64,000 bases of DNA, taken from the NCBI RefSeq assembly GCF_021917145.1, contig NC_061071.1, positions 7,600,072-7,664,071 of the forward strand. The letters are read 5' to 3'. This document shows, piece by piece, positions 16,341-45,480 of the stretch (the stretch's first letter is position 1; every line of letters begins with the position of its first letter). The translations under genes were made by a program, and so were the position numbers. The DNA is from Hypomesus transpacificus. Lineage: Eukaryota > Chordata > Actinopteri > Osmeriformes > Osmeridae. The notes below the pieces were generated by a model. It ran no database searches. It was not told where the DNA came from and saw nothing but the letters and a program-made list of their open reading frames with translations.

Positions 16341-16381
<41 letters not shown>

Positions 16382-18063: not shown

Positions 18064-18272
18064 CTGCAGGACATTCATTAACGCTTACTCAGGAATGGAC
18101 ATCCAGATCACTTCAGAGAAAACATCAATTTAGCTGGACATGTACTTGCTTGAGAACATACAGTCAGATTATTATTTGCTCCAAACTGCTTTTTGTATTT
18201 ATCACGTGCAGTTTATCTAAATAATTGATCAGAAGGATGCCAGTGTGGTTAGATTCTATCTGACAGACTCAC

Positions 18273-18400
18273 CTTGGCGGTTGTGTGGTGTGTATGGCTT
18301 GTCTTTGCGGTCTTCTTCAGGGTCAGGGCTGCGATGGCATCCTCCTTCCGGCACACCTTCACTGTAGCCGTGGCTACGCCCAGGGATCAGATAATGACAC
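18273..18400 (-). other. Probable 5' UTR exon of the V-V-C CD200-like gene
   Basis: The minus strand carries a good donor (GCCAAG|GTGAGT at 18273) about 200 nt upstream of an acceptor (CTGCAG) that directly precedes the signal-peptide exon. An upstream ATG in this exon opens a five-codon frame only (M-P-S-Q-P-stop), so the exon is non-coding for the receptor but may hold a short upstream reading frame. The upstream end of the exon is not defined by the sequence. Confidence 0.45.
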
Positions 18401-21230: not shown

Positions 21231-24029
21231 CTAATTAAAGTCATTGGAGAGACTGTAGAAGAGGAAAATCAAGTATATTTATTGTTCATTTATGGGTGTT
21301 TTAGGGACTAAGCAAACAGTGGTATAGCTTAATCAGTGCAATAATGTAATCAGCTTGAATACTGTAGCCCAAAACACCATTCACTTTCTATCTTAATTAA
21401 ATAATAAAGCAGATAAAATAACAAGATGACAGCTTACTCTCTTTTGCAGTCACCAGTTGAACTAGGTGATAGTTTTCTGAAAAAAGAACATTTATGAAGT
21501 TGTTCACAAATGTGTGTTGTAATAAAGCAGAGCAGAGCTGAGCAGAATCAATGAGGATGGCTTACTTATCTGGCAGCATTCGTTGATTCAAAGTGTTGCT
21601 GAAAACCAAAATAATGACAAGAATGAATACCTTCAAATGTGTATATAAGACATAAACAGTATGTGATGTATCAGAAGTTACAACATGCCGTAAAGTGTTC
21701 ATGTTACAGCATGTAAAGTACAGATGAAATGCAACAAAGCACCGTGTAGTGTCACTCTAGCACAGTAAACTGTATATCCTGATAGTATAGCAGCAGTTGT
21801 ATATGCTGGCATACTTACTTTCCATGTGGAGTGGTAATGGTTCTGGGGGGAATAAGTATTAACCATATTAGGAAAAGAGCCAAAGCACCTGTTTTACAAT
21901 TCACAAGTGATTTATATTGTTTAAAAAGGCACTGACATTTGTTGGTTAATGTATCCACAAAATGCTATCCTTAAATCATCGATCATTTCCTTGTCAAGAC
22001 CACTAAATGCTTTCATTCATCATGACTTACTGGGTTCTTGGCGTCGCCTTTTGAGGAGTGCATATGTTTTCATGAATGATGGAGTCATTGAAGGACTTAC
22101 TGTGTAAAACAAACCAGTTATAATCAGCTTGAATAATGAAGCCCAAAACACCAGTCACTTTCTATCTTAATTAAAGAGTAAAGCAGTAACCAGTCTAACA
22201 TTGATTAAGTTGTTGACATAATAAAGCATAACAAAGCTGACAGAATCAATGAGGATCAGGACCACTAAATGCTTCCATTCATTATGACTTTCTGGGTTCT
22301 TTGCGACGACTTTTTAGGAGTGCGTATGTTTTCATAACTGTCAGAGATATTGGAGATGGACTTTCTGTGTGAAACAAACCAGATGATGTCACCCTCTGAC
22401 CCCAGGTTACATCACTGTATCACTGTATGTCGGATAGATGTATTCAGTCATTTACATTTAACTTTGTATTGTTGTCTTGCTAAGCTTTAAACTTGACTGG
22501 CTTAGTTTGACTTAATATCTGGGTTAGAAAACAATCCCTTTTCTTTTCTTACCTCTGTTTCTTCCATCTCACTAAAAACAGTATGACGAAAACCATTAAA
22601 AAAAGCGTTGCAAACACTGATATAATCACTATGCCTGTGGACACAGACATAAATGAGAGATGAAGGTAATGGTACAGTACATGTAAAGGTACATTACAGC
22701 TGGTCAATGGGTCAATTAAACAGTCAACAATGAAACATGACAATACTTACGACTTCTCTCTGTGACCTGATCCACATGTTCAGCTGGCCAACAAAAAAGA
22801 ACATAAACATGAACATTGCGCTACTTTTCAACAGACCCCTTTACTTTATGTATATGTGTGTAGTGATAGCACATGACATCAGCTTATCTTACATGGAACA
22901 AACGCTTGGTCAGTAGCTGTAATCAACATGGACGCCTCTTTGCTGGCTCCCCCTGGGGACTGTGATGCCACACACCTAACCAACGTGTCTGGGGCCACTT
23001 TCACCCTGACGGTTGAGGTGACAGTGATGGTTCCATTGGGGTGAGGGATGTGGATAGTGCTGGAGTTTAACAGAGGGAGATGTTCAGGGATCTCCCACGT
23101 CACAGTTGGAGCAGGCCGTCCAGTGGCAGAGCAGGAAATGAATGAGTCGCCATTGGTGTTGTTTGTTTGTGTTGTGAGGAGACTGGGTTCATACAGCTCT
23201 ATGGACCAACAACAACAACAACAGTGGGGTCAATAATAGTATCACCCAAATGTGTAAAACTGATATTAATGATGAAGTACACAGGAAATGTACACAAATA
23301 AAATCTTACCATGGATTTTGATACAATGCTTCTCCGAGATGTCTTTGTATGGGTAGATGATAAACAGACAGTTGTAGCAACACTCATCCTTCCGTGTCAC
23401 GTTCCTGACAACAATTGAACTGTTGTGCAGTCCAGGGTTACTAAAGTCAACCTTCCCCTTAAAAGGAGAGTTGATCACAGGACCAAAGCGTGTATTACAG
23501 GTGCCCACATTTTGTTTAGTCTTTGCACTTTCTTTATTCCACGTGACCTGAAGAACCTCAAGCTGTTGCATGAGCTTGCAGTTAAGGACTGCATCTTGTC
23601 CAAGGTTAACAAAGACTTCATGACGAGTTTCCAGTGACTCAAGGTACCCTGTAGGAAGTTACAAAAACAGTTATGACCATTCAAACTATACATTATGTCA
23701 ACAATAACTAGTTCTGAATTTAAGTAAGTTCTTAAGTTAAGTACTTAAATAGCCTAGTAATTAAGTATTTAAGTGTTTCCTTTATGTTGATTCGGCAACA
23801 TTTCTGCCGACACGGTATCAGAAATATTGCTGTACAAAAGGCCGTAGACCCAGAGAAGAGAATGAAGACTAAACTGTAGATACATGTTCTGGGTCAGGTT
23901 AGTTTTAGTAGCATATCAACTCACTCACAGCTATTACACACAGTATATTTTATTTAAAAAAAATAAAGAAATCAGCTTACCTATAGGAAGAAGAAGTAGA
24001 ACAAAAAGAGACGCATGTGCTGCAGGCAT
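21231..24029 (-). CDS. OX-2/CD200-like membrane glycoprotein, V-C type, 331 aa, with a multi-microexon tail
   Basis: Exons are 23981-24029 (signal, MPAAHASLFVLLLLPIG), 23310-23648 (V), 22893-23198 (C-type), 22751-22783 (11-codon stalk), 22553-22634 (membrane span, GIVIISVFATLFLMVFVILF), then tail exons 22031-22099, 21819-21842, 21566-21598, 21438-21476 and 21231-21252. The sum is 996 nt, exactly 332 codons. The V domain has the CD200-type DECCYNCLFIIYP...KHC pattern, and the C domain has SFISCSATGRPAPTVTW with RCVA at the second cysteine. All internal tail exons are phase 2-2, so each can be skipped without changing frame. This spliced tail contains no tyrosine. A second copy of the first tail exon at 22293-22364 has a defective donor and is left out of the model. 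Likely an inhibitory-ligand family member at the cell surface. Confidence 0.82.
21340..22380. repeat. Partial tandem duplication inside the tail region of the OX-2-like gene
   Basis: TAATCAGCTTGAATA...GCCCAAAACACCA...CACTTTCTATCTTAATTAAA occurs at about 21,350-21,405 and again at 22,120-22,180. AGAATCAATGAGGAT recurs at about 21,543 and 22,241. CCACTAAATGCTT...ATGACTT with the following exon recurs at 21,999-22,116 and 22,261-22,382. The second copy is shortened and lacks the three microexons. Confidence 0.7.
22293..22364 (-). pseudogene. Duplicated cytoplasmic exon of the middle OX-2-like gene, splice donor lost
   Basis: A 72-nt near-copy of the tail exon at 22031-22099. It keeps the acceptor (CACACAG) and an open frame with the motif DSYENIRTP. 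The position matching the donor reads CCCA|GAAAGT instead of CCCA|GTAAGT. Flanking sequence is duplicated too (see the repeat entry). It is probably not spliced as an internal exon in this allele, although a sequencing error at two bases could mimic the defect. Confidence 0.65.
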
Positions 24030-24111
24030 AGTTAGATCTATTTGAATTTGAATTTGCCGATATGACGCAGCCTTTTCTATTCGTTGTTCAGAGTTCCTCC
24101 TCTTCCTTTTC

Positions 24112-24123
24112 GAAAGTGAAAGT
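24112..24123 (+). promoter_or_regulatory. Interferon-stimulated response element (ISRE/IRF-type)
   Basis: GAAAGTGAAAGT (followed by AAAAC) fits the GAAANNGAAA core bound by IRF/STAT complexes. It lies 83 bp upstream of the minus-strand start codon at 24029, next to ETS-like TTCCTCCTCTTCC. Position and match suggest interferon control of the OX-2-like gene; not tested. Confidence 0.6.
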
Positions 24124-24874
24124 AAAACGGTGCAACGTTGAAATAATGAACGAGACATTTTGTTTGAATACAGTTAATATCTTTATAAAAAATATATTAA
24201 GGTGTGGGTGTGCTTTTGAATATTTTATACATTCATGTGTCAATCTTGCATTGAAGTATTTGCATTTTATGGATTTCAATGAACAAATATACATTTACAA
24301 TGAAAACATTTATAATTTTAAATATGCGAAGGAAAAACAGGAGCACATTGCACATTAAAATATAAGAATCTTAAATTAAAGTAAACTACACTGCACTAAA
24401 ATGTTTTGAAGACATGTTAGGTAATATGAAACTATTCATGCAATGACATGACAGTGTAAATAAAGTGCAAAAAGTGCCAATCATGTTGATTTTTGAATTA
24501 GAAATGAGAATTCAACATTTTCAATTGTAAACAGTAAAATAATAACAGTTTGCCTCGATATAATCAAATGCTAAACATTTTAAAACTCAGATCTGAGGCG
24601 ATTATTACATTTATTTGCCACAAGGGAGAGCTGTTGAATCGTTGTCTTGGTTACCTGGTTGAGGGTGACAGATGATGAAAACATCTTCTGTAGCCAGGCT
24701 GCATCACTGTGTCCAATATCAATGAATAAATGTATTCACCCAATAACCTATAGTTATTTACTTATTTAAAACTTCTATCTATCCACACAAAGGTACGTAA
24801 ACACTGCAAACACTACTATTAGATTAGTACATTTCACATCCAGTTGTAGCCTATTAGATGAGTTGAACACATGT
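24124..24874. other. Spacer between the two V-C OX-2-like genes
   Basis: AT-rich sequence with no coding potential. It contains the upstream region of the middle OX-2-like gene and the 3' UTR of the next one (minus-strand AATAAA at 24,610-24,615). Confidence 0.5.
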
Positions 24875-27031
24875 TTACACAATTCCTTTTCCTTTTACAC
24901 AAAATGATACAGATTGACCTTTTAGTATCCTCTTTATGACATAGGAAATGAGCAAGAGAAAAGGAACGCAGAGGATGATTGTCAATGCAATCCCACCATG
25001 AAACCGGCCGTCATCTGGAAAGTGAAACAAAAGGTTCCAGTGAGGTGAGACAGCATTTCCAGTGAAGAGGGACATGGGATTTGCTTGCTAGATAGTCAGT
25101 AATATTAAGAGGCACTTTCTCTGGATTCTAGCCTGACGTTGTCATACTCATAATTCTAGTCAGAATATGAGTCTGAAAACTCTCCGTTGGGCTGTGACTA
25201 TATGGGGCGTGTGTCAACCGAGCTCGTAAAACAAATGCCTCTTCTTGTTGGGTCATTATGCTTCAAATTGCTGCAATTAGTTAGTGAAAATAAAACCTAA
25301 TTGCCCAGATAACAACACTGTATTACCAGCATAGTACATGCTGGTTATGATGCTGTACAAGTTTGCTTACTACTATAATTTTACTGTACACTACCTGAAA
25401 TGGACATGCAATGAAATGAAATTAAACGTACTGTAACTAAATAACATAAACATGTATTGTTTTTGTTATTTAGTCACAGGAATCATTATTACGGCTGTGT
25501 GATGAACTTCAAAACACAGTATTGATGTTCTAATGTCCATTGTAGAGATAGCTGTACTTCACTGACCCACTGTCACAATGTGTATCTGGATATGCATCAT
25601 ACACATTACATACCCTTGTCATTCTCTGTCTGCCCTTCATGGATGATGGGCAGCAGGATCCTCTCATGCTTTTGTCCTTTCGTCCCATTGTTTACAAGAC
25701 AGTCCACAAAGCCCCCTGACTGTGGCGACAGGCGAAGAGTGAGGTTGCTTGTAGTGGTGGCTGTTTGGTCGGCATTCAAAACTGTTCCCTGGCTCGGTTC
25801 TGTGTTGGCTGACGTAATCCAGGTGATAACAGGAGCTGGTTTTCCCGTGGCTGAGCATGACACTACAACTTCTGTGCCTGTCTTAAGGTGAGGGGGAGTC
25901 TGTGACTTTGCGGTTTTCACTTCAGATATACCTTCAGATAATATAAGAAAGAACGTGTTTAAGTGTCATCCGAATAATTAACAGCGTATAGGTCGTATTA
26001 TTAGCTTAATGACCTACACTGAGAGCAGGCAAAACAGTCGGGAAACTATTACTAATGAGTGTTTTCATTGAATTCTCTACATCTATAAATGTTAAGCCAA
26101 CCTTAGTGTATATACAGTTGGAGGATATTTCACTATCACTTAATCCTTACGTACACACAGACACACACACGTCATAGACACACACACACACACATATAGC
26201 ATGGATAGGTATATTTTACATATACATGTTTTCATATATAACTTTCTATATAGCCTATCCATGCACTTTTCTCACAATAAATGATTTAAACGTCAAAAAT
26301 CATTGAGAACAAAAATGATTATCCCTAACGACTATTAGAAAAGCTGGTTAATTCATTAACACACGTCAAGCTCTATTTAAACACCTGTTTTACAATATCG
26401 GCCCTTGCAATTTACACTTTCAATTAAAGAGCTATACGGTAATGCACAGCAAGGGCTAAATGTCTGCAGTCAAATCAAATGGAACAGGTGAATTGTGCCC
26501 CTTTCAGTGAAATACCTTGTACAGTGAGGCAGGTCTGCTTCCGTATAGATCCACTGGGATACACATTAAAGCTACAAATGTAGCAAGCCTCGTCGTTCCA
26601 TGTTACGTTCTTTACGATTATAGACGTTGAGTTGAGAGATGCCTTGGTGAGAAGTACCCTGCCTTGGTGTGGGCCGATGATTTGCGTTCCAAATCGTTTA
26701 CTAAATGTTGCCAAGGTCTCCACGGAGTCGTCTGAAAACAACCTCTGCCAAGTTACCTGTAGAACACCTGTCGAATCCGCAAGGTTGCAGCTGAACGATG
26801 AGGCTTCGCCGAAGACCGACGTCGTGTCTCCATTCGCCACGACGTTGAACGACAACGCTGTAAATTTGGAAATGCATTTTTTTAGTTTAATTGGCCAACA
26901 CGACTAGCTTTATTTGAGAGGTGCCATCTTAATTGGGCTTTATAAATGGACATTAACATTTTGACTCGACTAACCAATATAAATGGACAATTACCTTTCG
27001 ACAGTAAGCAAAATAAAATAACAGACTTCAT
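24875..27031 (-). CDS. OX-2/CD200-like membrane glycoprotein, V-C type, 278 aa, short tail
   Basis: Exons are 26995-27031 (start of signal peptide, MKSVILFCLLSK), 26516-26857 (V), 25614-25931 (C-type) and 24875-25014 (membrane span and tail to a TAA stop). The total is 837 nt, 279 codons. The V domain ends NDEACYICSFNVYP...KQTCLTV, the CD200 signature; it has SFSCNL at the first cysteine and LQVTWQR in strand C. The C domain has VVVSCSATGKPAPVITW and FVDCLV. The membrane segment is IALTIILCVPFLLLISYVI, followed by KRILKGQ and about 14 more residues with no tyrosine motif. The last exon contains a possible internal donor (TTTTGT|GTAAAA), so a spliced longer tail cannot be excluded. It is the third CD200-type gene in the cluster and points the same way as the others. 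Confidence 0.8.
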
Positions 27032-29968: not shown

Positions 29969-31846
29969 TCAGTCATCATCAGCACAGGGAAAGTCCAGTT
30001 GGACAGTTGAGTACAGCCCATTGGTTGTCTGTATGAATGTGCTGTACGGCTCAATATCTTGCACCTCCTAAAAGACACAAGCAAAGAAGACTCATCAATC
30101 AACAAGTATAAACACATTTCATGTATTCATGGAACATTTAAAGGCATAATCATTGATGCCATGTACTGAAGTGCTGTGAAATCACTTGAGCTCATAAAGA
30201 CATCATGTTTTACTTGAAACTCAGTGGAAGGGACACAGTTTTGCTGGTGAAGTTTCCTTTTGAGCAAAAAAAAGAAAAGAGAAAAGAATGAACACAGTGG
30301 TAAATAATAGGCTTATGTAACAATGTCTCTAGCACTGTTTGTCTGCTAGACAAACTAGACAACAAGTGAAAAGACCTATAGTGGTTAAGATTGAGATGGT
30401 AACCTGTCACTCAACAAAAGTAGGTCATTTATCTTTCATGCATGTCTTCAAGGTGCCGTGTATGTTGGCACCTTGTATGTTGGCACACAAGTTAGCAGGT
30501 GCGTTGTATTTGCAAAACACAAATGTATTTACTATATTAAGGCAAGAGCTAATGAGTGGTCATTAACAAAGCAAGATCATCTGGTGACTTGAATCACCAG
30601 TTTACAGAATGAGTCGTCATTGTCATCCTTTTCTGTTCTTTTTGAGTGAGCTAATCTCTTACCAGAGATGTATTTTCTTCAGAGTTACTCCAACAAAGAC
30701 AACAGCAACCATGGTCACTGCCAAGCCTCCCATCATCATCATCATCATCATCACATTAGGGTAGGGGCCTTCTTCAGTCATAGATGCATGAAATTCTGCG
30801 TACGGCAAGCAAGGTTATGTGTTTTACACTATTTATGTTGATCTTGTTTGTCTCATCAATAATGATTATGATCATAATTATTATATTAACTAACTACATG
30901 CTCTTATTGTTCTTCTCTTTGGGACTTATTTGGTTTCACAATGTATGCTACATGTTTGGCTACCCGCAATGTTTGGGGCTATCTCGTTGTTATGATCAGT
31001 GACCTATGCACTTTTGTAAACTCTCTCCTGGAAGTTGCTTTGGATAAAAGCATCTGCTAAATGCATACATGTAAATGTAAATATTACTGAGAACTTGATG
31101 ACAGACTGTACAATGTATGTTTTACACAGAACACAATGCAGTAGCAGCAGTACTTAATAACTTTAATCTATGGAACACTTACCTTTGTAAGAAACACTGA
31201 TATTTGTGAAATTTGTTCCTCCATGAAAGACACACTGACATTTGTAGTTCCCTTCATCAGATGCTGTTGGATGTATGAAGTGTAAAAATGTTCTTTCCTT
31301 CTCTACGTGCATGGTGACTCTGGAGACACAACTTGTGTGTATTTTATTAATGTCAAATCGATACGAAATTGCACATCCATATGTCAAATTATTCACTGTA
31401 TGTATCTCACAATTGACAGCAAGCATTTCCTCAAATGATAGGTGGGTGCATATAGGAGTGGAATTTGACATTTCTGAGAGCACAAAATAGAGAGTTTCTG
31501 GAAAAAATGAATAAAAGGCACATCGATATTATTAGTGGATGATGGGATAGACTGGGAATACTCTATGCTCAAATCATATTTGTTAAGTAAAACGATATTT
31601 GATTATCTACTGTTATCATTATTATAGGCATTATCTGTGTGTTGCTTTGTTCAAAAGTGTCAGCTAAATTAATACAATGTAAAATGTATGTGTACTGAAT
31701 CTACAGGGACAAGAATGCAGGAACAAGTTACAAAGAAAATGCAGGGAATCATTCAAATGAAACTATTATCTGGACTTACCCTCAATGGCTGTGTACATTC
31801 CCTGCAGTCCCAAAAGCACAACAAACCTGAATGCACTTTTCCACAT
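29969..31846 (-). CDS. Single-Ig-domain type I membrane receptor, array copy 1, full tail, 218 aa
   Basis: Exons are 31780-31846 (signal, MWKSAFRFVVLLGLQGMY), 31183-31497 (Ig), 30663-30795 (membrane), 30214-30256 and 29969-30067 (tail). The total is 657 nt, 219 codons. The Ig domain has six cysteines (39, 52, 64, 79, 109, 111) and ends SDEGNYKCQCVF. An N-terminal cysteine plus a strand-C cysteine recalls BTLA, but overall similarity is low and I do not assign orthology. The membrane exon carries seven consecutive Met codons from an ATG repeat. Only in this copy does the last exon encode a full tail, EVQDIEPYSTF...NGLYSTVQLDF, whose GLYSTV is ITIM-like with a non-canonical Gly at -2. A fish interspersed-repeat fragment (31,034-31,079) is present only in this copy's intron. 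Confidence 0.78.
31034..31079 (-). repeat. Fragment of the teleost interspersed repeat, reverse orientation
   Basis: Contains TTTGGATAAAAGCATCTGCT and ends AAATGCATACATGTAAATGTAA, the reverse complement of the element's 5' end. It lies in the intron between the Ig and membrane exons of array copy 1 and is missing from copies 2-4. Confidence 0.65.
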
Positions 31847-32371
31847 TCTACCCAGTAAAACCAACTAACCAATATATTATTCTGTGGACCTGTCTGTCTG
31901 GATGTCAACTCAAAGTTTCAGGCTAAATATTGATGCAGAGCAAGACACGTTCACCCTTGAACAAGCTCCGTCTCCCCAAACACACAAACTAAGGGGTTAT
32001 GTTTTAAGAGTCTCAGCACTGTCGCTTGTTTCCGACCTAAAAAACACGTACAGAAACTTGTGCAGGAGGAAGTGGTATTTGATGTATTGAGGAGTCTGTG
32101 GGTCTGTGGGCTCTATAAGTATATGACAATGGGGTAGATAGCTGTGCAGCCCTGGCAACTACTATTCACTGCTCAACGTTTATTTTCAGTTTTAGCAACA
32201 TTAGGAAACCACATGTGCACATGTTCTTGGTAACTCAGATGAAGGGTGCAAAGTCACTTTTATTAATAATAAATGAGACAACATTGTATTTGTTAATTAC
32301 ACATGTCACAGTAAACAATTTAGGTGCAACATGATTCTGTGATTATCAGAAATATTGATTATTGAGTGGGT

Positions 32372-32388
32372 GGGGGGGGGGGGGGGGG
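32372..32388 (+). repeat. Poly-G tract flanked by G triplets (array unit; also 34,794-34,807 and 37,213-37,227)
   Basis: Runs of 17, 14 and 15 G sit at the same place in each unit, with GAGTGGGT before and AGTGGGGCGG after. They could form G-quadruplex on the plus strand. Length differences between otherwise identical units reflect slippage or homopolymer miscounts. Confidence 0.8.
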
Positions 32389-32593
32389 AGTGGGGCGGAA
32401 ACCAATATTGATAAGTAATGAAGTTGGAAGAGAGCCAAAGAAGTAATGTTACTGGAAAGTGGTTGGGAAGCAGACTATGGTAAGAGTCAAAAAGAGTTGT
32501 GACCAGTGTGTATAGTATAAGTCAGTCGTCATCATCAGCACAGGGAGTTCAACTGGATGACCAGCTGGGCAGTTGAGTACAGCCCATTGGTTC

Positions 32594-34268
32594 TCAATAT
32601 GAATGTGTTGTACGGCTCGTTGGCTCAATATCCTGCACCTTCTAAAAGACACAAGCAAAGCAGTCTCACTGAGCAATCAACCAACATGACTTAGAATAAA
32701 CACATTTTATGTACAGTACCAGTCAAAAGTTTGGACACATTTTGGGAAAATGTGTCCAAACTTTTGACTGGTACTGTATTCATGGACATTTAAAGGCATA
32801 ATCATTGATACCCTATACCGAAGTGCTGTGAATTCATTTGAGTTCATAAAGACATCATGTTTTACGTGAAACTCTTTGGAAGGGACACAGTTTTGCTGGT
32901 GAAGTTTCCTTTTGGGCAAAAAAGAAAAGAGAAAAGAATGAACACAGTGGTAAATAATAGGCCTATGTAACAATGTCTCTAGCACTGTTTGTCTGCTTTA
33001 AGGGGTATAAGCATACTGTTCTCATAACCGCTCTGACACACTAGACGAGAAGTGAAAGGACCTATAGTGGTTAAGATTGAAATGGAGACCTACAACCTGT
33101 CCATCTCTAATTATATCTTAGCATGTGCGTTGTATTTGAAACACACAAATGTATTTACTATATTAAGGCAAGCGCTAATGAGTGGTCATTAACATAGCAA
33201 GATAATCTGGTGACTTGAATCACCAGTTTACAGAATGAGTCGTCATTGTCATCCTTTTCTGTTCTTTTTGAGTGAGCTAATCTCTTACCAGAGATGTATT
33301 TTCTTCAGAGTTACTCCAACAAGTACAACAGCAACCATGGTCACTGCCAAACCTCCCATCATCACCGTCACATTAGGGTAGTAGGGGCCTTCTTCAGTCA
33401 TAGACGCATGAGATTCTGCGTGCGGAAAGCAAGGTTTTGTGTTTTACACTATTTATGTTGATCTTGTTTGTCTCATTAATAATAATTATCATCATAATGA
33501 TCATAATACTGAGAACTTGATGACACACTGTACATTGTAAGTTGAACACAGAACACAATGCAGTAGCAGCAGTACTTAATAACTTTAATCTATGGAACAC
33601 TTACCTTTGTAAGAAACACTGATATTTGTGAAATTTGTTCCTCCATGAAAGATACACTGACATTTGTAGTTCCCTTCATCAGATGCTGTTGGATGTATGA
33701 AGTGTAAAAATGTTCTTTCCTTCTCTACGTGCATGGTGACTCTGGAGACACAACTTGTGTGTATTTTATTAATGTCAAATCGATACGCAATTGCACATCC
33801 ATATGTCAAATTATTCACTGTATGTATCTCACAATTGACAGCAAGCATTTCCTCAAATGATGGGTAGGTGCATATAGGAGTGGAATTTGACATTTCTGAG
33901 AGCACAAAATAGAGAGTTTCTGGAAAAAATGAATAAAAGGCACATCGATATTATTAGTGGATGATGGGATAGACTGGGAATACTCTATGCTCAAATCATA
34001 TTTGTTAAGTAAAACGATATTTGATTATCTACTGTTATCATTATTATAGGCATTATCTGTGTGTTGCTTTGTTCAAAAGTGTCAGCTAAATTAATACAAT
34101 GTAAAATGTATGTGTACTGAATCTACAGGGACAAGAATGCAGGAACAAGTTACAAAGAAAATGCAGGGAATCATTCAAATGAAACTATTATCTGGACTTA
34201 CCCTCAATGGCTGTGTACATTCCCTGCAGTCCCAAAAGCACAACAAACCTGAATGCACTTTTCCACAT
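32594..34268 (-). CDS. Single-Ig receptor, array copy 2, truncated tail, 199 aa
   Basis: Exons are 34202-34268, 33605-33919, 33289-33415, 32866-32908 and 32594-32641, summing to 600 nt (200 codons). Signal and Ig exons are almost identical to copy 1. The membrane exon reads GPYYPNVTVMMGGLAVTMVA without the Met run. In the last exon an 8-bp insertion (AACGAGCC after GATATTGAGCC) shifts the frame, so the tail ends KVQDIEPTSRTTHSY-stop. The LYSTAQL-encoding sequence still exists downstream in another frame but is not translated. It is probably expressed as a membrane protein lacking the tyrosine motif seen in copy 1. Confidence 0.75.
32714..32776. mobile_element. 63-bp Tc1-type terminal-repeat palindrome (array copy 2)
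   Basis: CAGTACCAGTCAAAAGTTTG... forms a perfect 30-bp inverted repeat around a GGG loop, flanked by TA on both sides. The arm resembles the terminal repeat of Tc1/mariner elements common in fish. The homologous site in copy 1 (ATGTATTCATGG) is empty. It lies in the intron before the last exon. Confidence 0.8.
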
Positions 34269-35012
34269 TCTACCCAGTAAAACCAACTAACCAATATATT
34301 ATTCTGTGGACCTGTCTGTCTGGATGTCAACTCAAAGTTTCAGGCTAAATATTGATGCAGAGCAAGACACGTTCACCCTTGAACAAGCTCCGTCTCCCCA
34401 AACACACAAACTAAGGGGTTATGTTTTAAGAGTCTCAGCACTGTCGCTTGTTTCCGACCTAAAAAACACGTACAGAAACGTGTGCAGGAGGAAGTGGTAT
34501 TTGATGTATTGAGGAGTCTGTGGGTCTGTGGGCTCTATAAGTATATGACAATGGGGTAGATAGCTGTGCAGCCCTGGCAACTACTATTCACTGCTCAACG
34601 TTTATTTTCAGTTTTAGCAACATTAGGAAACCACATGTGCACATGTTCTTGGTAACTCAGATGAAGGCTGCAAAGTCACTTTTATTAATAATAAATGAGA
34701 CAACATTGTATTTGTTAATTACACATGTCACAGTAAACAATTTAGGTGCAACATGATTCTGTGATTATCAGAAATATTGATTATTGAGTGGGTGGGGGGG
34801 GGGGGGGAGTGGGGCGGAAACCAATATTGATAAGTAATGAAGTTGGAAGAGAGCCAAAGAAGTAATGTTACTGGAAAGTGGTTGGGAAGCAGACTATGGT
34901 AAGAGTCAAAAAGAGTTGTGACCAGTGTGTATAGTATAAGTCAGTCGTCATCATCAGCACAGGGAGTTCAACTGGATGACCAGCTGGGCAGTTGAGTACA
35001 GCCCATTGGTTC

Positions 35013-36687
35013 TCAATATGAATGTGTTGTACGGCTCGTTGGCTCAATATCCTGCACCTTCTAAAAGACACAAGCAAAGCAGTCTCACTGAGCAATCAAC
35101 CAACATGACTTAGAATAAACACATTTTATGTACAGTACCAGTCAAAAGTTTGGACACATTTTGGGAAAATGTGTCCAAACTTTTGACTGGTACTGTATTC
35201 ATGGACATTTAAAGGCATAATCATTGATACCCTATACTGAAGTGCTGTGAATTCATTTGAGTTCATAAAGACATCATGTTTTACGTGAAACTCTTTGGAA
35301 GGGACACAGTTTTGCTGGTGAAGTTTCCTTTTGGGCAAAAAAGAAAAGAGAAAAGAATGAACACAGTGGTAAATAATAGGCCTATGTAACAATGTCTCTA
35401 GCACTGTTTGTCTGCTTTAAGGGGTATAAGCATACTGTTCTCATAACCGCTCTGACACACTAGACGAGAAGTGAAAGGACCTATAGTGGTTAAGATTGAA
35501 ATGGAGACCTACAACCTGTCCATCTCTAATTATATCTTAGCATGTGCGTTGTATTTGAAACACACAAATGTATTTACTATATTAAGGCAAGCGCTAATGA
35601 GTGGTCATTAACATAGCAAGATAATCTGGTGACTTGAATCACCAGTTTACAGAATGAGTCGTCATTGTCATCCTTTTCTGTTCTTTTTGAGTGAGCTAAT
35701 CTCTTACCAGAGATGTATTTTCTTCAGAGTTACTCCAACAAGTACAACAGCAACCATGGTCACTGCCAAACCTCCCATCATCACCGTCACATTAGGGTAG
35801 TAGGGGCCTTCTTCAGTCATAGACGCATGAGATTCTGCGTGCGGAAAGCAAGGTTTTGTGTTTTACACTATTTATGTTGATCTTGTTTGTCTCATTAATA
35901 ATAATTATCATCATAATGATCATAATACTGAGAACTTGATGACACACTGTACATTGTAAGTTGAACACAGAACACAATGCAGTAGCAGCAGTACTTAATA
36001 ACTTTAATCTATGGAACACTTACCTTTGTAAGAAACACTGATATTTGTGAAATTTGTTCCTCCATGAAAGACACACTGACATTTGTAGTTCCCTTCATCA
36101 GATGCTGTTGGATGTATGAAGTGTAAAAATGTTCTTTCCTTCTCTACGTGCATGGTGACTCTGGAGACACAACTTGTGTGTATTTTATTAATGTCAAATC
36201 GATACGAAATTGTACATCCATATGTCAAATTATTCACTGTATGTATCTCACAATTGACAGCAAGCATTTCCTCAAATGATGGGTAGGTGCATATAGGAGT
36301 GGAATTTGACATTTCTGAGAGCACAAAATAGAGAGTTTCTGGAAAAAATGAATAAAAGGCACATCGATATTATTAGTGGATGATGGGATAGACTGGGAAT
36401 ACTCTATGCTCAAATCATATTTGTTAAGTAAAACGATATTTGATTATCTACTGTTATCATTATTATAGGCATTATCTGTGTGTTGCTTTGTTCAAAAGTG
36501 TCAGCTAAATTAATACAATGTAAAATGTATGTGTACTGAATCTACAGGGACAAGAATGCAGGAACAAGTTACAAAGAAAATGCAGGGAATCATTCAAATG
36601 AAACTATTATCTGGACTTACCCCCAATGGCTGTGTACATTCCCTGCAGTCCCAAAAGCACAACAAACCTGAATGCACTTTTCCACAT
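35013..36687 (-). CDS. Single-Ig receptor, array copy 3, truncated tail, 199 aa
   Basis: Exons are 36621-36687, 36024-36338, 35708-35834, 35285-35327 and 35013-35060, 600 nt. It is nearly identical to copy 2. Differences include TISYR in place of AIAYR and CQCVF in place of CQCIF in the Ig domain, and AIG instead of AIE at the end of the signal exon. It carries the same 8-bp insertion and early stop in the last exon. Confidence 0.75.
35133..35195. mobile_element. 63-bp Tc1-type terminal-repeat palindrome (array copy 3)
   Basis: Identical in structure and relative position to the palindrome at 32714-32776: 30-bp arms, GGG loop, TA on both sides. Present because the whole unit was duplicated. 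Confidence 0.8.
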
Positions 36688-37432
36688 TCTACCCAGTAAA
36701 ACCAACTAACCAATATATTATTCTGTGGACCTGTCTGTCTGGATGTCAACTCAAAGTTTCAGGCTAAATATTGATGCAGAGCAAGACACGTTCACCCTTG
36801 AACAAGCTCCGTCTCCCCAAACACACAAACTAAGGGGTTATGTTTTAAGAGTCTCAGCACTGTCGCTTGTTTCCGACCTAAAAAACACGTACAGAAACTT
36901 GTGCAGGAGGAAGTGGTATTTGATGTATTGAGGAGTCTGTGGGTCTGTGGGCTCTATAAGTATATGACAATGGGGTAGATAGCTGTGCAGCCCTGGCAAC
37001 TACTATTCACTGCTCAACGTTTATTTTCAGTTTTAGCAACATTAGGAAACCACATGTGCACATGTTCTTGGTAACTCAGATGAAGGGTGCAAAGTCACTT
37101 TTATTAATAATAAATGAGACAACATTGTATTTGTTAATTACACATGTCACAGTAAACAATTTAGGTGCAACATGATTCTGTGATTATCAGAAATATTGAT
37201 TATTGAGTGGGTGGGGGGGGGGGGGGGAGTGGGGCGGAAACCAATATTGATAAGTAATGAAGTTGGAAGAGAGCCAAAGAAGTAATGTTACTGGAAAGTG
37301 GTTGGGAAGCAGACTATGGTAAGAGTCAAAAAGAGTTGTGACCAGTGTGTATAGTATAAGTCAGTCGTCATCATCAGCACAGGGAGTTCAACTGGATGAC
37401 CAGCTGGGCAGTTGAGTACAGCCCATTGGTTC

Positions 37433-39097
37433 TCAATATGAATGTGTTGTACGGCTCGTTGGCTCAATATCCTGCACCTTCTAAAAGACACAAGCAAAGC
37501 AGTCTCACTGAGCAATCAACCAACATGACTTAGAATAAACACATTTTATGTACAGTACCAGTCAAAAGTTTGGACACATTTTGGGAAAATGTGTCCAAAC
37601 TTTTGACTGGTACTGTATTCATGGACATTTAAAGGCATAATCATTGATACCCTATACCGAAGTGCTGTGAATTCATTTGAGTTCATAAAGACATCATGTT
37701 TTACGTGAAACTCTTTGGAAGGGACACAGTTTTGCTGGTGAAGTTTCCTTTTGGGCAAAAAAGAAAAGAGAAAAGAATGAACACAGTGGTAAATAATAGG
37801 CCTATGTAACAATGTCTCTAGCACTGTTTGTCTGCTTTAAGGGGTATAAGCATACTGTTCTCATAACCGCTCTGACACACTAGACGAGAAGTGAAAGGAC
37901 CTATAGTGGTTAAGATTGAAATGGAGACCTACAACCTGTCCATCTCTAATTATATCTTAGCATGTGCGTTGTATTTGAAACACACAAATGTATTTACTAT
38001 ATTAAGGCAAGCGCTAATGAGTGGTCATTAACATAGCAAGATAATCTGGTGACTTGAATCACCAGTTTACAGAATGAGTCGTCATTGTCATCCTTTTCTG
38101 TTCTTTTTGAGTGAGCTAATCTCTTACCAGAGATGTATTTTCTTCAGAGTTACTCCAACAAGTACAACAGCAACCATGGTCACTGCCAAACCTCCCATCA
38201 TCACCGTCACCTTAGGGTAGTAGGGGCCTTCTTCAGTCATAGACGCATGAGATTCTGCGTGCGGAAAGCAAGGTTTTGTGTTTTACACTATTTATGTTGA
38301 TCTTGTTTGTCTCATTAATAATAATTATCATCATAATGATCATAATACTGAGAACTTGATGACACACTGTACATTGTAAGTTGAACACAGAACACAATGC
38401 AGTAGCAGCAGTACTTAATAACTTTAATCTATGGAACACTTACCTTTGTAAGAAACACTGATATTTGTGAAATTTGTTCCTCCATGAAAGATACACTGAC
38501 ATTTGTAGTTCCCTTCATCAGATGCTGTTGGATGTATGAAGTGTAAAAATGTTCTTTCCTTCTCTACGTGCATGGTGACTCTGGAGACACAACTTGTGTG
38601 TATTTTATTAATGTCAAATCGATACGCAATTGCACATCCATATGTCAAATTATTCACTGTATGTATCTCACAATTGACAGCAAGCATTTCCTCAAATGAT
38701 GGGTAGGTGCATATAGGAGTGGAATTTGACATTTCTGAGAGCACAAAATAGAGTTTCTGGAAAAAAAGACACATTGATATTATTAGTGGATGATGGGATA
38801 GACTGGGAATACTGTATGCTCAAATCATATTAGTTAAGTAAACAGATACTTGATTATCTACTGTTATTATTATTATAGGCATTATCTGTGTGTTGCTTTG
38901 TTCAAAAGTGTCAGCTAAATTAATACAATGTAAAATGTATGTGTACTGAATCTACAGGGACAAGAATGCAGGAACAAGTCACAAAGAAAATGCAGGGAAT
39001 CATTCAAATGAAACTATTATCTGGACTTACCCTCAATGGCTGTGTACATTCCCTGCAGTCCCAAAAGCACAACAAACCTGAATGCACTTTTCCACAT
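37433..39097 (-). pseudogene. Single-Ig receptor, array copy 4, frameshifted in the Ig exon
   Basis: Exons by homology are 39031-39097, 38444-38756, 38128-38254, 37705-37747 and 37433-37480. The Ig exon is 313 nt instead of 315. Two bases are missing seven bases after the acceptor (AAACTCTATTTT against AAACTCTCTATTTT), so joining it to the signal exon in the usual phase reaches a stop within about 20 codons. The last exon also has the 8-bp insertion and early stop. An open frame entering from an upstream ATG through the acceptor (MCLFFQKLYFVLSEM) could rescue the Ig domain only by using a different start. I call it a likely pseudogene, or a copy with altered 5' splicing. Confidence 0.65.
37553..37615. 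mobile_element. 63-bp Tc1-type terminal-repeat palindrome (array copy 4)
   Basis: Third copy of the TA-flanked palindrome, at the same place in the unit as in copies 2 and 3. Confidence 0.8.
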
Positions 39098-39814: not shown

Positions 39815-42800
39815 CTACTGTGCATTGACCCCAGTGTACAACATGTAGAAAGCAGCGAACCCCAAGCCTGTCAGTGCCGTCACCATGGCTGTCAGAACCT
39901 TCTGGGACCACAGGCATCGCTCCAACTTCTGCTCCAGCCTGGTGCTGCTGGCCAACATGTGCAAGAGCTGCAGGGAACAGAGGATGCAAGGAACGGCTCG
40001 TTCAACAACGCAAAACACAGAGGTTTAGATAGGTTCTAAAATGCTTTGACACCTCTGTATTAACGTATTCTGTAATACTTTCACACTTCGAAACGCTAAA
40101 TATCCGCTGAACACTTCGACCACATGAACTAATTGCACTGGTGACTCACAGTGGTGTGCATGTCTTGGTACCCGTTGGCCTCCTGTATTTTGGGCTGTTC
40201 TTTTTGGCTGTTTCTTACTGGGTTGAGGGCAGGCTTGAGGCCTTCCAGGATGTGACATTGCAGCCTACAGGTACAGACAAGCACTTTATCAATGCACATC
40301 TGAGGTATAATTGTCTTTGGAGACACATAAACAACCAACACTGTTCTTAATTGTTACATTTTCTACAAATACTTTAGTAGGGCACTTGATGTTTGTGTTT
40401 TGTTCATCTTAATAAAAGTGGACAATCTCACCTGTGCTCCATCATTTTGTTTCGTTGGATGCCCTTCCAGAAGGAGGTCAGATCTGGGCCTGTCCCACTG
40501 TTCTGTTCCATCTCTGCTGCCATGATCAAGAAACGGTCCTGAGGCGAGGGCACAGAAGCTGCACAGCCAATCAGAAGACATGCAATCGGGTCCAACAGCC
40601 GATCAGAAATAATCTAGGACTAACAGATTTTTTCTCCCATTTCTATATATATATTAAATACAGGTCTACAGATCCTATTCATGTTTTTATATTGCATACG
40701 CAGTGTAGGACTTTACAGAGTAGGACTAAAGGGTTGAATGGGATAGATGAAGCACCTCCATGCAGGGACACCATGATCTCTGCATTAGTCCCTGGCTCAC
40801 AGCTACTGTTGCTGGGCTTCACCCTGTACTTGTTTGGTGCTGTGGTGCGTACCTAAAACCATAGATAGGAGGGTTGTCAAATAAGCCAAAAATACATCTA
40901 TGTATGCATTCATTTATGTATACACATGTATACCTAAATATGGCGAACAGCAGTGAAGTGATGATTGTCTGGAGCCTTCCTTCCTGTTTTTTTTAACTAC
41001 TTTAGTACTAAATTAGTTACTAAATTAGTTACTAAATTAGTTTCTAGTGTATAAGTAAGCACTTGATTTTCTACTTGCTTTTGTTGTTTCCACTTTTCTG
41101 GTATTGTTTTGGTTGTGATTGGATGTACACGGATGAACACATAGGTTATCCAGTGTTTAAAGAGGGACATTCTAGAGTCCACTGAGCAAGACTTACCTTA
41201 AAGGCCACTGGGTTTTTGGTGACATTATTAAGGACGATCAGACATTTCTTGTCGCTCTCTTGGGAGCCAAAGCACAGCTCTTCAGCAGGACTGCAGCAGG
41301 AAAATAAACAAGATCAAATGCTGAAAACCCCATTTCTGTGCTTTCCTTTTCTCTCTGTCTTGTCACTTCACTTCAAAAACAAGTGGTTTAGCCCGTGTGC
41401 TCACTCTGCAGAAGCGTGGTGCGCCAAAGTCCCCATACATATTCCAAGCAGTACACTGTACATGCACCTGCAAATTATATTGTGTGCATAACTGCTAAAT
41501 ATTCTATTCCATTTTAAGTTTGTAACATCAATGCAAAATATAACCTAATATGGAGTAAAGCATGGTGACACTGTACTACACCACAGTAATGATGTAGGAC
41601 ATAGACAAAAATATGTATTACACTGTACATTCAAATGGATACAAAAAAGTCAAAACATGAACAAAATAAATGAGTACAGTCTTTAACCTCAAAGTCAACT
41701 CTAACCTGACATGGAGCAAACAGCCTTTCCAAGTCGTCGTGGGTCTCCTAGCTGTCCTGACTCTGCTCACAGTGTCCATGTCCCCATCCTCAGAAAAGGA
41801 CACCTGCTCCTCCAAATGGATAGAGATGGAGAACAAATGTATCTGTTATCTATATGCTATGCTATTATCCATGCTCGCTACATATGACTAGAATTGGACA
41901 GTAGGACGGCTCTGAACTAGGCGGTTTGTCGGATGAAGGCATGGACGGCGGCACCTTTTTGGGGATGACGGCTGGCTCTGCCATCTCACCATCCTGCTCT
42001 CCATCTTTCACCTCCATGTCATCCTCATGTCCAGGATCGGATATGGACCGCTGGAAGTCATCGTCGGGCAGAGGTGGATAGCTGTATTTGAAGGGGTCCT
42101 GTGAATTCGACGTTAACAGAAGAGATACTTTGGCCAAACCAGATCCCAGGCAACACAGAAGCGATCACGTTCTTTAGTGCAACTCACAGCATTACCTGAA
42201 CCTTCCAATTAGTGTATTATGAGTGTTGTATGCTGTCAGCAGACGCAGCTGTAGGCTGTCTGTATTGTTTTCATTGAGAATACAGTCCCTTTAGGTGTAG
42301 TCATACATAATATACAGCTGTGGCTACATGCTAATGAGGCTAAATATGTGTGAGTGTTTGTGTACTGTATGCACCCAGCATCAATGTATATTTTAATCCA
42401 ATGGACAGAGGAATTATGTGGACAGCATACATTGAAACTAAAAAACGTTTAGACAAGCAGAAAGGTGTCTTCTGAACTGTATGCAAAGCAGAAAGTAGAT
42501 GTGGACTCTGTGTAGATACTGTTAAGGTGTGTCTGGTACTGCAGCTGTATGGAACGTACTGTTCCTCCCATGTAAGAAGGTAGGTGTTCTGCGTCGACGT
42601 AAGTCTGGATGTCACTCTTGGAGACAAACTTCAGCTTGTCGATGGCGTCTGGGTCCAGCCAGGTCTTAGTGACCCTCCAAGCAGCTAGGGTGTAGATTAG
42701 GCAACTGGGATTACAAACAGAGCTGTGATATAATCAGTGCTAATGGTGGTTGTTGAGATGGGCAGGCCAGCATGGTCTTGAATAGACTTAAATGAACTGA

Positions 42801-45480
42801 AATACTCGCCATGACTCACCATTCATGATCCATGGCATGTCATACATGAGCATTTTAGCTGAAAATCAACAGAATTAAAGAAACACAAACGAGACATGAG
42901 CTTTCCCTTTAAGGGCGATTATCAGATGGGGGTCCCATGCAGGTTAAACATACCATATGATTTTCCAATAAGTTAAAATGTTTTTGAAATGTCAAAGAGA
43001 CAATGCAAGTCCAGCACATTAAAAGGAACATGATCCTGGATTACTAAAATGCCACAAATCATAAACAAGAGGGACAAAAGCACTGTATTATCCTCAGCTA
43101 CTTACAAAGCAATCTTGGGTAATATACCTGGAAGCAATTAATGATGTACTTCACAAACTCCATGTCCTACAAGAGAAGGGACAGAGCAGATACTGATCGC
43201 ATAAAGACATCATTTGGAGCAATAAGAGAGGAAACATGTTCAGTAAAGACGCAGCTGTATATCTTTCTGAACAGACTTAGAGCCCCAAGCTAACGCCTGA
43301 CCCAGATAAGACAGAGAAGCTAACTTTGGCTCTTTGCACTCACATACTGTTTCTGTTTACTCAATCATATGACCCGTAATACCCCCAAGAAAATATCATA
43401 GCCTTTTATTATACAAACATTGTGATGTCCTAACACTGGATAGTCCACTGTGTGTGTGTTTGTGTGTGTGTGCAAAAAGCCAATATTGCAGATATTCTCT
43501 TAAAAAAGGAACTAATAGCCTATCTAATTTCTCTTTCAACAGCTTTTGTTTTTCTAGAAGTTTTTATGGTCCAAGATTACCTTTGAGCTCAACATAGGCT
43601 AGTGTCTAATCATGCCACATTAGGCCATTGGGTAGTTTTTTTGGAGCATACATAAGCACAATCATAAAGAGAGGGATAAATTGACTTACAGTAATGATAA
43701 CCGAAACTCATCCCTGAGTAATACCGAGATACAGTGAAGCTGTACATTTCGAAAGGACATTGGGTTTCACGAAAGACGCATTCACGTGTCCCAAACAAAT
43801 ACTAAAAACCTCCCATGATGTTGAGATTGAGTGAGTGAGAGAGAGGAAATGAGTGAGAGAGAGGAAATGAGTGAGAGAGAGAGACAGAGAGACAGAGAGA
43901 GAGAGGGAGGGAATGAGTGAGAGCAGAGGGAAGGGGTGTGGAGAGCAGTTTCTTACGACATTTCCTAGACCCGACTCAGACATGTCGAACACCACAGTGA
44001 GGGACATTCCAGGTTCTCTCTTGGCGTAGCGCTCTAACCAGAAGGCCACATACCTCTTCCTCTCCTGCAACATCCGCGGGTCTTTCACATGTAACTTCAC
44101 CCTAAACCAGACTGGGGACAAAACCGACTGTTTACTGCAGCATGAACACAATGTTCTATTTGGATTTTAAAAACGGCCACATTCAGATTGAGTTCCTCTT
44201 CAAGACAATAAACACATACACAGTTTGTTGCCTTCTTTATCATAGCCATGGAGGTAGTGCACACCGGACTCGAAGAGAGTATTCTGGATACAGCTTTCAT
44301 TTATGTCTAGAAGAGGAGAGATTCATCAATTAGAGAAATGGGTATGCTGATTGAAACTACATTTACATTTACATTTAGCAGACGCTCTTATCCAGAGCGA
44401 TTTACAGTAAGTACAGGGGCATTCCCCCGAGGCAAGTAGGGTGGAATACCTTGCCCAAGGACACAACGTCATTGGGTGTGGCCGGGAATCACACTAGCGA
44501 CCTTCAGATGACTAGCCCGATTCCCTAACTCGATTCCTTTGCCGCTCAGCCACCTGACTCCCAAACTAACCCGAGGTTAGTCTGAAAATGAAAGTGTCTT
44601 TGTGTGTGTGTGTTTGTGTGTGCATGTGGGACCTACACACGTGGCCCACATAGCCCTTCTGCATTCACTAAACAGAGGGTTCTCTATTGTAGTAGTTACA
44701 ATTATTTTCATTGTAAACCAGCCCAGGGTCTAACTTCATGCCATTGTAAAAATCTTTAAATAATCCTTCCCCACCTGTCTATATCTAATTTCCAAACAGT
44801 GATCAATGTTTTCTTACCCCTGGTATGCCATCTTGAATAACTGGTTTAAGATGGTTTACTGTAACCAACATGTGACGTTTGCAAATGGTACAACCAGTTT
44901 TGGATCAATCTGATGATGGCAGAGTGTTCCTGGAACAGAGATAACCCACCATTCAGTTCGAATTCCTTTCTCCACTTTAGGCTCTCATCGATCATTTTCA
45001 AGGTGTCTTCCAACACATAGTGCCTCCAGTCCAAATAACCGTCCACCAAAGCGTCGTCATTCAGTAGCCTGTCCACATCCCTGATGTCATACTTGTCACA
45101 TGAATCTGTGACACATGTAAATGGAATGCATGATTGCCCCCTTTTTTTTCGACACACGTTTCTTGTCTAAGCTATCTCTACAATGTATTAACTTTTGATT
45201 AGAAACACTTGTAACTTTCGTTACAGGCTATACATTTTGTATTATATTTTTAATTATTATTCTCTTCACAGCGCATTCCACATCTCACCTTGTGCATATT
45301 CCGAGCTGAATCTTTGTCTTATTTCTGCTATTTTCTTTTGAAAAAAAAAAAAGTTTATAAAAAGTTATCAATACGTCTGCATTTCATGTTACATCCAAAA
45401 TGCATTGTCTGATCAGATTTTTAAAAAGTGCTGTAATTTGTGTTTACCTTTTGTGATTCAGTTGAACCTGCGTCCGCCAT
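39815..45480 (-). CDS. mospd2: MOSPD2 (motile sperm domain-containing protein 2), complete, 511 aa
   Basis: Fifteen exons: 45448-45480, 45289-45334, 44950-45105, 44220-44306, 43957-44111, 43106-43166, 42820-42858, 42560-42684, 41955-42098, 41706-41809, 41197-41290, 40756-40852, 40432-40558, 40150-40264 and 39815-39967. The total is 1536 nt, 512 codons; human MOSPD2 is 518 aa. An N-terminal CRAL-TRIO domain (AFWLERYAKREPG, VVFDMSESG, MPWIMN, DPFKYSYPPLPDDDF) is followed by an MSP domain (about 310-425; SPAEELCFGS, VAFKVRTTAPNKYRVKPS) and a C-terminal anchor (VLTAMVTALTGLGFAAFYML). The protein is ER-anchored; its MSP domain binds FFAT motifs of partners at organelle contact sites. The acceptor of exon 10 is ambiguous by one codon. 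The start codon lies 803 bp from that of gemin8. Confidence 0.95.
43831..43925. repeat. GA-rich microsatellite
   Basis: About 95 bp of GAGAGA with GAAATGAGTGA interruptions, in mospd2 intron 5. Confidence 0.85.
44357..44563 (+). repeat. Teleost interspersed repeat, full length
   Basis: ACATTTACATTTACATTTAG start, GCAGACGCTCTTATCCAGAG core, a GGCCGGGAATCACACTAGCG segment and a GCTCAGCCACCTGACTCCC end. Same family as 11,566-11,748. Inserted in mospd2 intron 3. Confidence 0.8.

Follow-up and report, generated by a model that had tools for sequence, protein, structure and literature searches.

Four tandem copies of a receptor gene with a single immunoglobulin (Ig) domain lie at 29969-39097 in a 64,000-nucleotide stretch of the Hypomesus transpacificus genome (contig NC_061071.1, positions 7,600,072 to 7,664,071, hereafter the window). 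The pattern of differences among the copies makes it highly probable, in our judgement, that the array derives from two older genes by unequal crossing-over within the Ig exon, an event that would have placed a body with an early-stopping tail behind the head of its neighbour. The fuller claim, namely this history together with competition between the tailless copies and the one copy with a tyrosine-bearing tail if they are expressed, has in our view slightly better than even chances. The switch point within the Ig exon, three near-identical units, an 8-bp indel and the early stops are direct observations.

Organisation of the receptor array

All copies are on the minus strand. Copy 1 (29969..31846), the A gene, consists of exons 31846-31780, 31497-31183, 30795-30663, 30256-30214 and 30067-29969 and has an intact frame of 218 aa with a signal-peptide-like start, one Ig domain, a transmembrane segment and a C-terminal tail, EPYSTFIQTTNGLYSTVQLDFPCADDD, that contains YSTF and YSTV. 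Copy 2 (32594..34268; exons 34268-34202, 33919-33605, 33415-33289, 32908-32866 and 32641-32594) and copy 3 (35013..36687; exons 36687-36621, 36338-36024, 35834-35708, 35327-35285 and 35060-35013) each combine an A-type head with a B-type body; their frames are open through the signal peptide, the Ig domain and the transmembrane segment, and both 199-aa products end in THSY followed by a stop. Copy 4 (37433..39097; exons 39097-39031, 38756-38444, 38254-38128, 37747-37705 and 37480-37433) is the B gene and carries a 2-bp deletion near 38749. These gene models agree with a preliminary description of the same DNA, which had proposed four tandem copies and had given the exon 4/5 junctions and the stops.

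A type I membrane topology is predicted from a start, MWKSAFRFVVLLGLQGMYTA, that by eye resembles a signal peptide, and from one hydrophobic segment. The top 19-residue hydropathy windows reach 2.26 in copy 1 and 2.30 in copy 2 and lie inside residues 142-166, and no charged residue was found in the best hydrophobic windows of these two copies, the ones tested. Before the transmembrane segment an N-x-T sequon (NVT) occurs in copies 2 and 3 and not in copy 1; in copy 4 alone, an Asn to Lys change at 38211 removes it.

The deletion in copy 4, a lesion that the preliminary description had overlooked, shortens its Ig exon (exon 2) to 313 nt versus 315 nt through loss of CT in a CTCTCT run. Read with the acceptor of copies 1-3, the frame stops after 43 aa. 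An acceptor 22 nt downstream (38734) restores it and scores 9.4 versus 11.9 for the usual site (splice-site scores here and below derive from consensus matrices and are for ranking only); in copies 1-3 this downstream acceptor lies 24 nt into the exon and is in frame too. Copy 4 would then be either a pseudogene or a gene whose product is slightly shortened at its N-terminus. The earlier proposal that the ectodomains are near-identical holds for copies 1-3, and for copy 4 only conditionally, as the 2-bp deletion makes use of the downstream acceptor necessary.

A switch point within the Ig exon

To the left and right of a point in exon 2, the four copies group differently. Over the ungapped columns of a four-way alignment, all 132 substitutions at which copy 1 is the odd one lie at or left of 31444, and all 49 at which copy 4 is odd lie at or right of 31518. 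Indels obey the same left/right rule, except at 32372, where a run of G differs by 2 bases. Eleven events follow other patterns; of these, eight are substitutions, two sit at the edges of the alignment and one is a further event in the G-run. The switch interval in exon 2 of copy 1 is 31445..31488, from the last copy-1-odd site at 31444 to the first difference that sets copy 4 apart, a 2-bp indel at about 31489, and together with its equivalents in the other copies it places the breakpoint within about 45 bp.

With their ends set inside the switch interval, three amplified units of 2.42 kb were delimited, each with its boundary in the Ig exon: U3 (31467..33888; body of copy 2 and head of copy 1), U2 (33889..36307; body of copy 3 and head of copy 2) and U1 (36308..38727; body of copy 4 and head of copy 3). 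The units are 99.67-99.92% identical, pairs differing by 2, 6 or 8 substitutions (0.08-0.33%), and overall (31467-38727) they are separated by eight substitutions and one G-run; five of the eight fall in coding sequence, and all five are missense. The upstream regions of copies 1 and 2 differ at 2 of 494 sites, as do those of copies 2 and 3, and the figure for copies 1 and 4 is 29 of 486.

From these patterns we infer the following order of events. At the start, two older receptor genes would have stood in tandem, with B upstream of A. B would have given rise to the head of copy 4 and to the body common to copies 2-4, and A to the body of copy 1 and to the head common to copies 1-3; the tail exon of B would have differed from that of A by 8 bp and stopped early. 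Unequal crossing-over within the Ig exon would then have produced copies 2 and 3 as chimeras of an A head and a B body, with a promoter and start of the copy 1 type and an Ig body and broken tail of the copy 4 type. The exchange would also have supplied the B body with a head free of the exon 2 deletion seen in copy 4.

Two inserted elements lend support as markers of two old lineages. The B bodies share in intron 4 a 64-bp palindromic insert resembling a miniature inverted-repeat transposable element, flanked by TA (a TA duplication), at 32715-32778 in copy 2, 35134-35197 in copy 3 and 37554-37617 in copy 4; copy 1 has the empty TA site near 30126. Intron 2 of copy 1 alone carries a 198-bp insert resembling a short interspersed element (30883..31080) with a UnaL2-like end. 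Ends similar to this one occur elsewhere in the window at 14715, 44358 and 11565. Across the window, Rfam gave a single match at gathering score, the UnaL2 3' element of a long interspersed element at 14716-14769 on the minus strand.

We also considered whether the assembly had expanded a two-gene locus by looping at the near-identical Ig exon. Indeed, the switch lies at the edge of a tract in which A and B are nearly identical, and A and B match exactly over 134 nt (31232-31365) and 258 nt (31730-31987), both stretches being no more than 0.3 kb away from it. However, exact identity at the switch itself extends over only about 44 nt, and the units carry private differences (the eight substitutions and the G-run), some confined to copy 2 and others to copy 3, that simple looping would fail to produce. 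We therefore hold such an artefact to be improbable.

Similarity of the ectodomains

Measured against the Ig exon of copy 1, those of copies 2 and 3 show 96 and 97% identity, respectively. Copies 1 and 4 differ at 2 of 316 sites in a tract at 31124..31439 that comprises 59 intron nucleotides with no difference and most of exon 2; equal conservation was reached by no window of this length in 3,000 permutations, which assume independent sites. A second block (31730-31987) spans exon 1, a small part of intron 1 and proximal upstream sequence. None of its 258 sites carries a substitution, and the longest such run produced by 5,000 permutations was 221. Intron 1 differs by 3.3% between copies 1 and 4. 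Comparison of exon 2 between copies 1 and 2 gave four nonsynonymous and no synonymous differences over 65 synonymous sites; at the rate of intron 1, the lack of synonymous changes would not in itself be striking. Gene conversion or exchange appears to be a better account of the likeness of the Ig tract than constraint.

The homogenised tract bears on whether the tailless copies are selected decoys, retained because they damp signalling by copy 1 or capture a ligand of a pathogen, while gene conversion keeps the ectodomains alike. The homogenisation of the Ig tract between A and B and the shared upstream region and head would suit such a role, as would the ectodomain homogenisation described for paired and decoy receptors (PMC12447643, PMC2832619 and the preprint PMC13278318). 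Exchange, however, homogenises any tandem array, and we regard a selected decoy role as doubtful.

An 8-bp difference ends the tail of copies 2-4

The last exon of copies 2-4 contains eight base pairs, AACGAGCC, that copy 1 lacks. By alignment they lie on the minus strand at 32614..32621 in copy 2, with alternative placements up to 32619-32626 because GGCTC is repeated, and at 35033..35040 in copy 3 and 37453..37460 in copy 4, where placement is equally ambiguous. It is because of this difference that copies 2 and 3 end in THSY. The 8 bp in copies 2-4, the stop after THSY and the presence of LYSTAQL in another frame had all been reported in the preliminary description and were found again here, and its view of one shared event is upheld by exon 5, which is the same in copies 2-4: copy 2 shows no substitutions relative to copy 3 or to copy 4 in 116 aligned columns. 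Between copies 1 and 2 the exon differs by 10 substitutions in 98 columns and three gaps. Three independent losses of the tail were ruled out, as the site patterns and the identity of exon 5 point to one body amplified by unequal exchange. That the 8-bp event occurred once and was then copied is well supported by the alignments.

The direction of the event is another matter. The 8 bp had been called an insertion; the presence/absence difference stands, and as to direction gain and loss both fit. They match the preceding ATTGAGCC at six of eight bases, and random 8-mers match either neighbour this well at a rate of 0.008. The pattern would fit a diverged tandem duplication, or else a deletion between GAGCC repeats in copy 1. 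The latter leads to a history of reversed polarity, in which the short tail of B is the older state and an 8-bp deletion in A made the tyrosine tail from former 3' untranslated sequence. Such a deletion between two GAGCC repeats would yield the copy 1 sequence, and the A-B changes in the tyrosine frame show no sign of constraint. Against this history, shuffling copy 1 exon 5 rarely gave such a tail: among 20,000 shuffles the frame was open in 2,830, two Yxx-hydrophobic motifs occurred in 35 of the open ones, and in just two did they have the spacing of an immunoreceptor tyrosine-based activation motif (ITAM), a count to be read with the fact that the motif used was picked after it had been seen. 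Reversed polarity is unlikely in our estimation.

In the lost frame, the region of copy 2 reads EPYNTFILRTNGLYSTAQL. The tailless copies keep the first motif in this frame (YNTF), and the second has become YSTA, which is no longer Yxx-hydrophobic. Dinucleotide shuffling of the copy 2 region (20,000 replicates) left 6,623 replicates open for at least 25 codons; 1,054 of these contained two Y-x-x-[LIVMFA] motifs, 251 of them at ITAM-like spacing. Codon changes between the A and B tails are mostly amino-acid-changing, with no constraint visible. The earlier claim that the motif is ancestral is plausible but weak given these two results, and we judge it likelier than not that the tyrosine motifs are ancestral.

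Alternative splicing could in principle give copies 2-4 a tyrosine tail again. Their exon 4 donor is weak (2.8 versus 4.4 in copy 1), which makes further isoforms possible, and each of these copies offers 88 GT/AG combinations that would formally bring the tail back. This enumeration ran from exon 3 to 110 nt into exon 5, with exon 4 of 10-400 nt or skipped and introns of at least 60 nt, copy 4 being read with its downstream acceptor. The best frame-restoring summed scores were nevertheless 5.4 (copies 2 and 4) and 4.8 (copy 3), as against 19.9 for the plain copy 1 model, and restoration by this route is very improbable. The AGs in the first 18 nt of exon 5 of copies 2-4 sit, by eye, at multiples of three and cannot restore the frame.

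Tyrosine motifs in the copy 1 tail

The tails were scanned for the immunoreceptor tyrosine-based inhibitory motif (ITIM), (I/L/V/S)xYxx(L/V), the corresponding switch motif (ITSM), TxYxx(V/I), and the strict ITAM, (D/E)xxYxx(L/I)x6-8Yxx(L/I). No ITIM or ITSM was matched in the tail of copy 1 or of copies 2-4, and no strict ITAM in that of copy 1. As a control, the tail of the BTLA gene of the window gave the ITIM LLYAAL and no ITSM. Among the tyrosine-motif definitions in PMC2832619, Yxx(L/M/V/I/F) describes the endocytic or ITAM-like tail of CEACAMs. Copy 1 has two such motifs, YSTF and YSTV, with seven residues between them, which corresponds to ITAM spacing; copies 2-4 as read have none.

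The description of copy 1 as signalling-capable thus finds backing only in part, from two Yxx-hydrophobic motifs at ITAM spacing, and none from ITIM, ITSM or strict ITAM matches. Since the copy 1 tail fits none of these three definitions, the idea of SHP recruitment is weak, and a reading of the tail as an SHP-binding ITIM tail was rejected on these grounds. An endocytic or ITAM-like role would be a better first guess.

Relation to known receptors and neighbouring genes

Copies 1-3 encode a DEGNYKC strand-F motif, and their Ig exon is 315 nt long and of phase 1-1. About 24 kb from the array lies a BTLA gene (4757-6245, plus strand), the Ig exon of which has BTLA as its best PDB match (E 3.3e-09) and the tail exon of which contains LLYAAL (ITIM) and SEYAAI. 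Like the array it has a single Ig domain, and unlike copy 1 it has an ITIM. The array protein matched it over 19 residues only (E 0.26 when the Ig exon was the query and 1.2 for the complete protein), and the 18% identity comes from a doubtful alignment in which the strand-B cysteines are unaligned and BTLA is mixed with one CD200/nectin-like domain.

Several known systems resemble the array in part. CD300A and CD300C have, like the array, a single Ig domain, near-identical ectodomains, which PMC12447643 ascribes to gene conversion, and a long tail with tyrosine motifs in one member and a short tail in the other. However, CD300A has classical ITIMs and copy 1 has none, and CD300C has a charged transmembrane residue for adaptor pairing; this mark of the short-tailed member of a paired receptor is absent from the hydrophobic windows of copies 1 and 2. 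SIRP-gamma, according to PMC12975943, is traditionally viewed as a decoy and has a short tail with no signalling motif; like copies 2-3, it pairs such a tail with an ectodomain resembling that of a signalling relative (SIRP-alpha). The SIRPs differ in having three Ig domains and a gamma tail of 4 aa, compared with one Ig domain and about 35 tail residues in the array. By this comparison, the predicted proteins of copies 2-3 would resemble SIRP-gamma more closely than CD300C. Genes of the CEACAM1/CEACAM3 type share with the array a tandem arrangement, an Ig exon kept similar by conversion and recombination, and an ITAM-like tail (PMC2832619; preprint PMC13278318). There, however, the decoys bear the ITAM-like tail and their target bears ITIMs, whereas the array has a single tyrosine tail, of the ITAM-like kind, and no such tail in its remaining copies. 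Among the matches listed in searches made without the species name, no title or abstract opening described such an array.

Within the window no convincing further copies of the array were found among matches to E 10, and four pattern matches to the array in viral contigs yielded no confirmed case. On the minus strand, Ig exons of the V and C2-set_2 types are clustered at 14858-26903 and are similar to CD200, nectins and CD226 (two of the four V exons were compared with PDB). The gene at 39818-45166 on the minus strand matches CRAL-TRIO (PF00650), exceeding the cut-off only at 42452-42733, and is presumably MOSPD2-like; GEMIN8 (46527) adjoins it. Both the genes of the window and its UnaL2 element point to a bony fish.

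Competition or neutral turnover

If transcribed, copies 2 and 3 would give membrane-anchored Ig receptors with about 35 tail residues and no tyrosine motif. Copy 1 would signal or be internalised through its two Yxx-hydrophobic motifs, and copies 2-3 would vie with it for ligand with no signalling of their own, in the manner of SIRP-gamma. Since the upstream regions of copies 2 and 3 are nearly the same as that of copy 1, co-expression with copy 1 is a fair inference. That copies 2 and 3 share their first exon and promoter region with copy 1 would favour the decoy idea slightly; a possibly defective copy 4 and the neutral look of the tails count slightly against it.

Some observations weigh against the history and competition proposed here. 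Three minority substitutions (30167, 31231 and 31366) ally copy 3 with copy 1, and to explain them the account also requires recurrent mutation or a second exchange. Exons 3-5 differ by 7.0-11.8% between A and B, and introns 2-4 outside the homogenised tract by 8.7-16.4%; since the exons diverge about like introns, there is no visible constraint on the tail. Copy 4 may be non-functional. The Pfam matches of copies 1-3 (I-set, E 0.0069-0.02; V-set, E 0.018-0.06) are under the gathering scores, and a single-sequence AlphaFold2 model had a mean predicted local distance difference test score of 33.9 and was unusable. The expression, the protein and the ligand roles of the copies are themselves predictions from DNA.

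Competition by non-signalling copies is plausible by analogy, and neutral birth-and-death would fit as well. Here the B body would have lost its tail and been amplified by chance, leaving copies 2-4 redundant or decaying and with no decoy role. The second frame lesion in copy 4, the divergence of the tail exons at the level of introns and the coding changes among the units (five of eight substitutions, every one missense) all point this way. Against it, copies 2 and 3 keep open frames, although the amplification looks too recent for this to carry much weight. We give this account a serious chance, somewhat short of even, and consider it at least as likely as a selected decoy role.

Viewed as sequence alone, the array is what unequal crossing-over ordinarily produces among clustered immune genes, and events of this kind are known. 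Expressed decoys could also have originated here in a single step, if the crossing-over gave a tailless body the promoter, the signal peptide and the intact beginning of the Ig exon from a signalling neighbour and amplified it; this is a rather slim prospect. If it is true, one ITAM-like receptor (copy 1) would face two or three competitors that do not signal, an inversion of the CEACAM arrangement. The breakpoint, placed to within about 45 bp, and the private sites make the array directly testable, and if expressed, it would be a clean case of tandem exchange making non-signalling copies that share their upstream region and ectodomain with a signalling copy.

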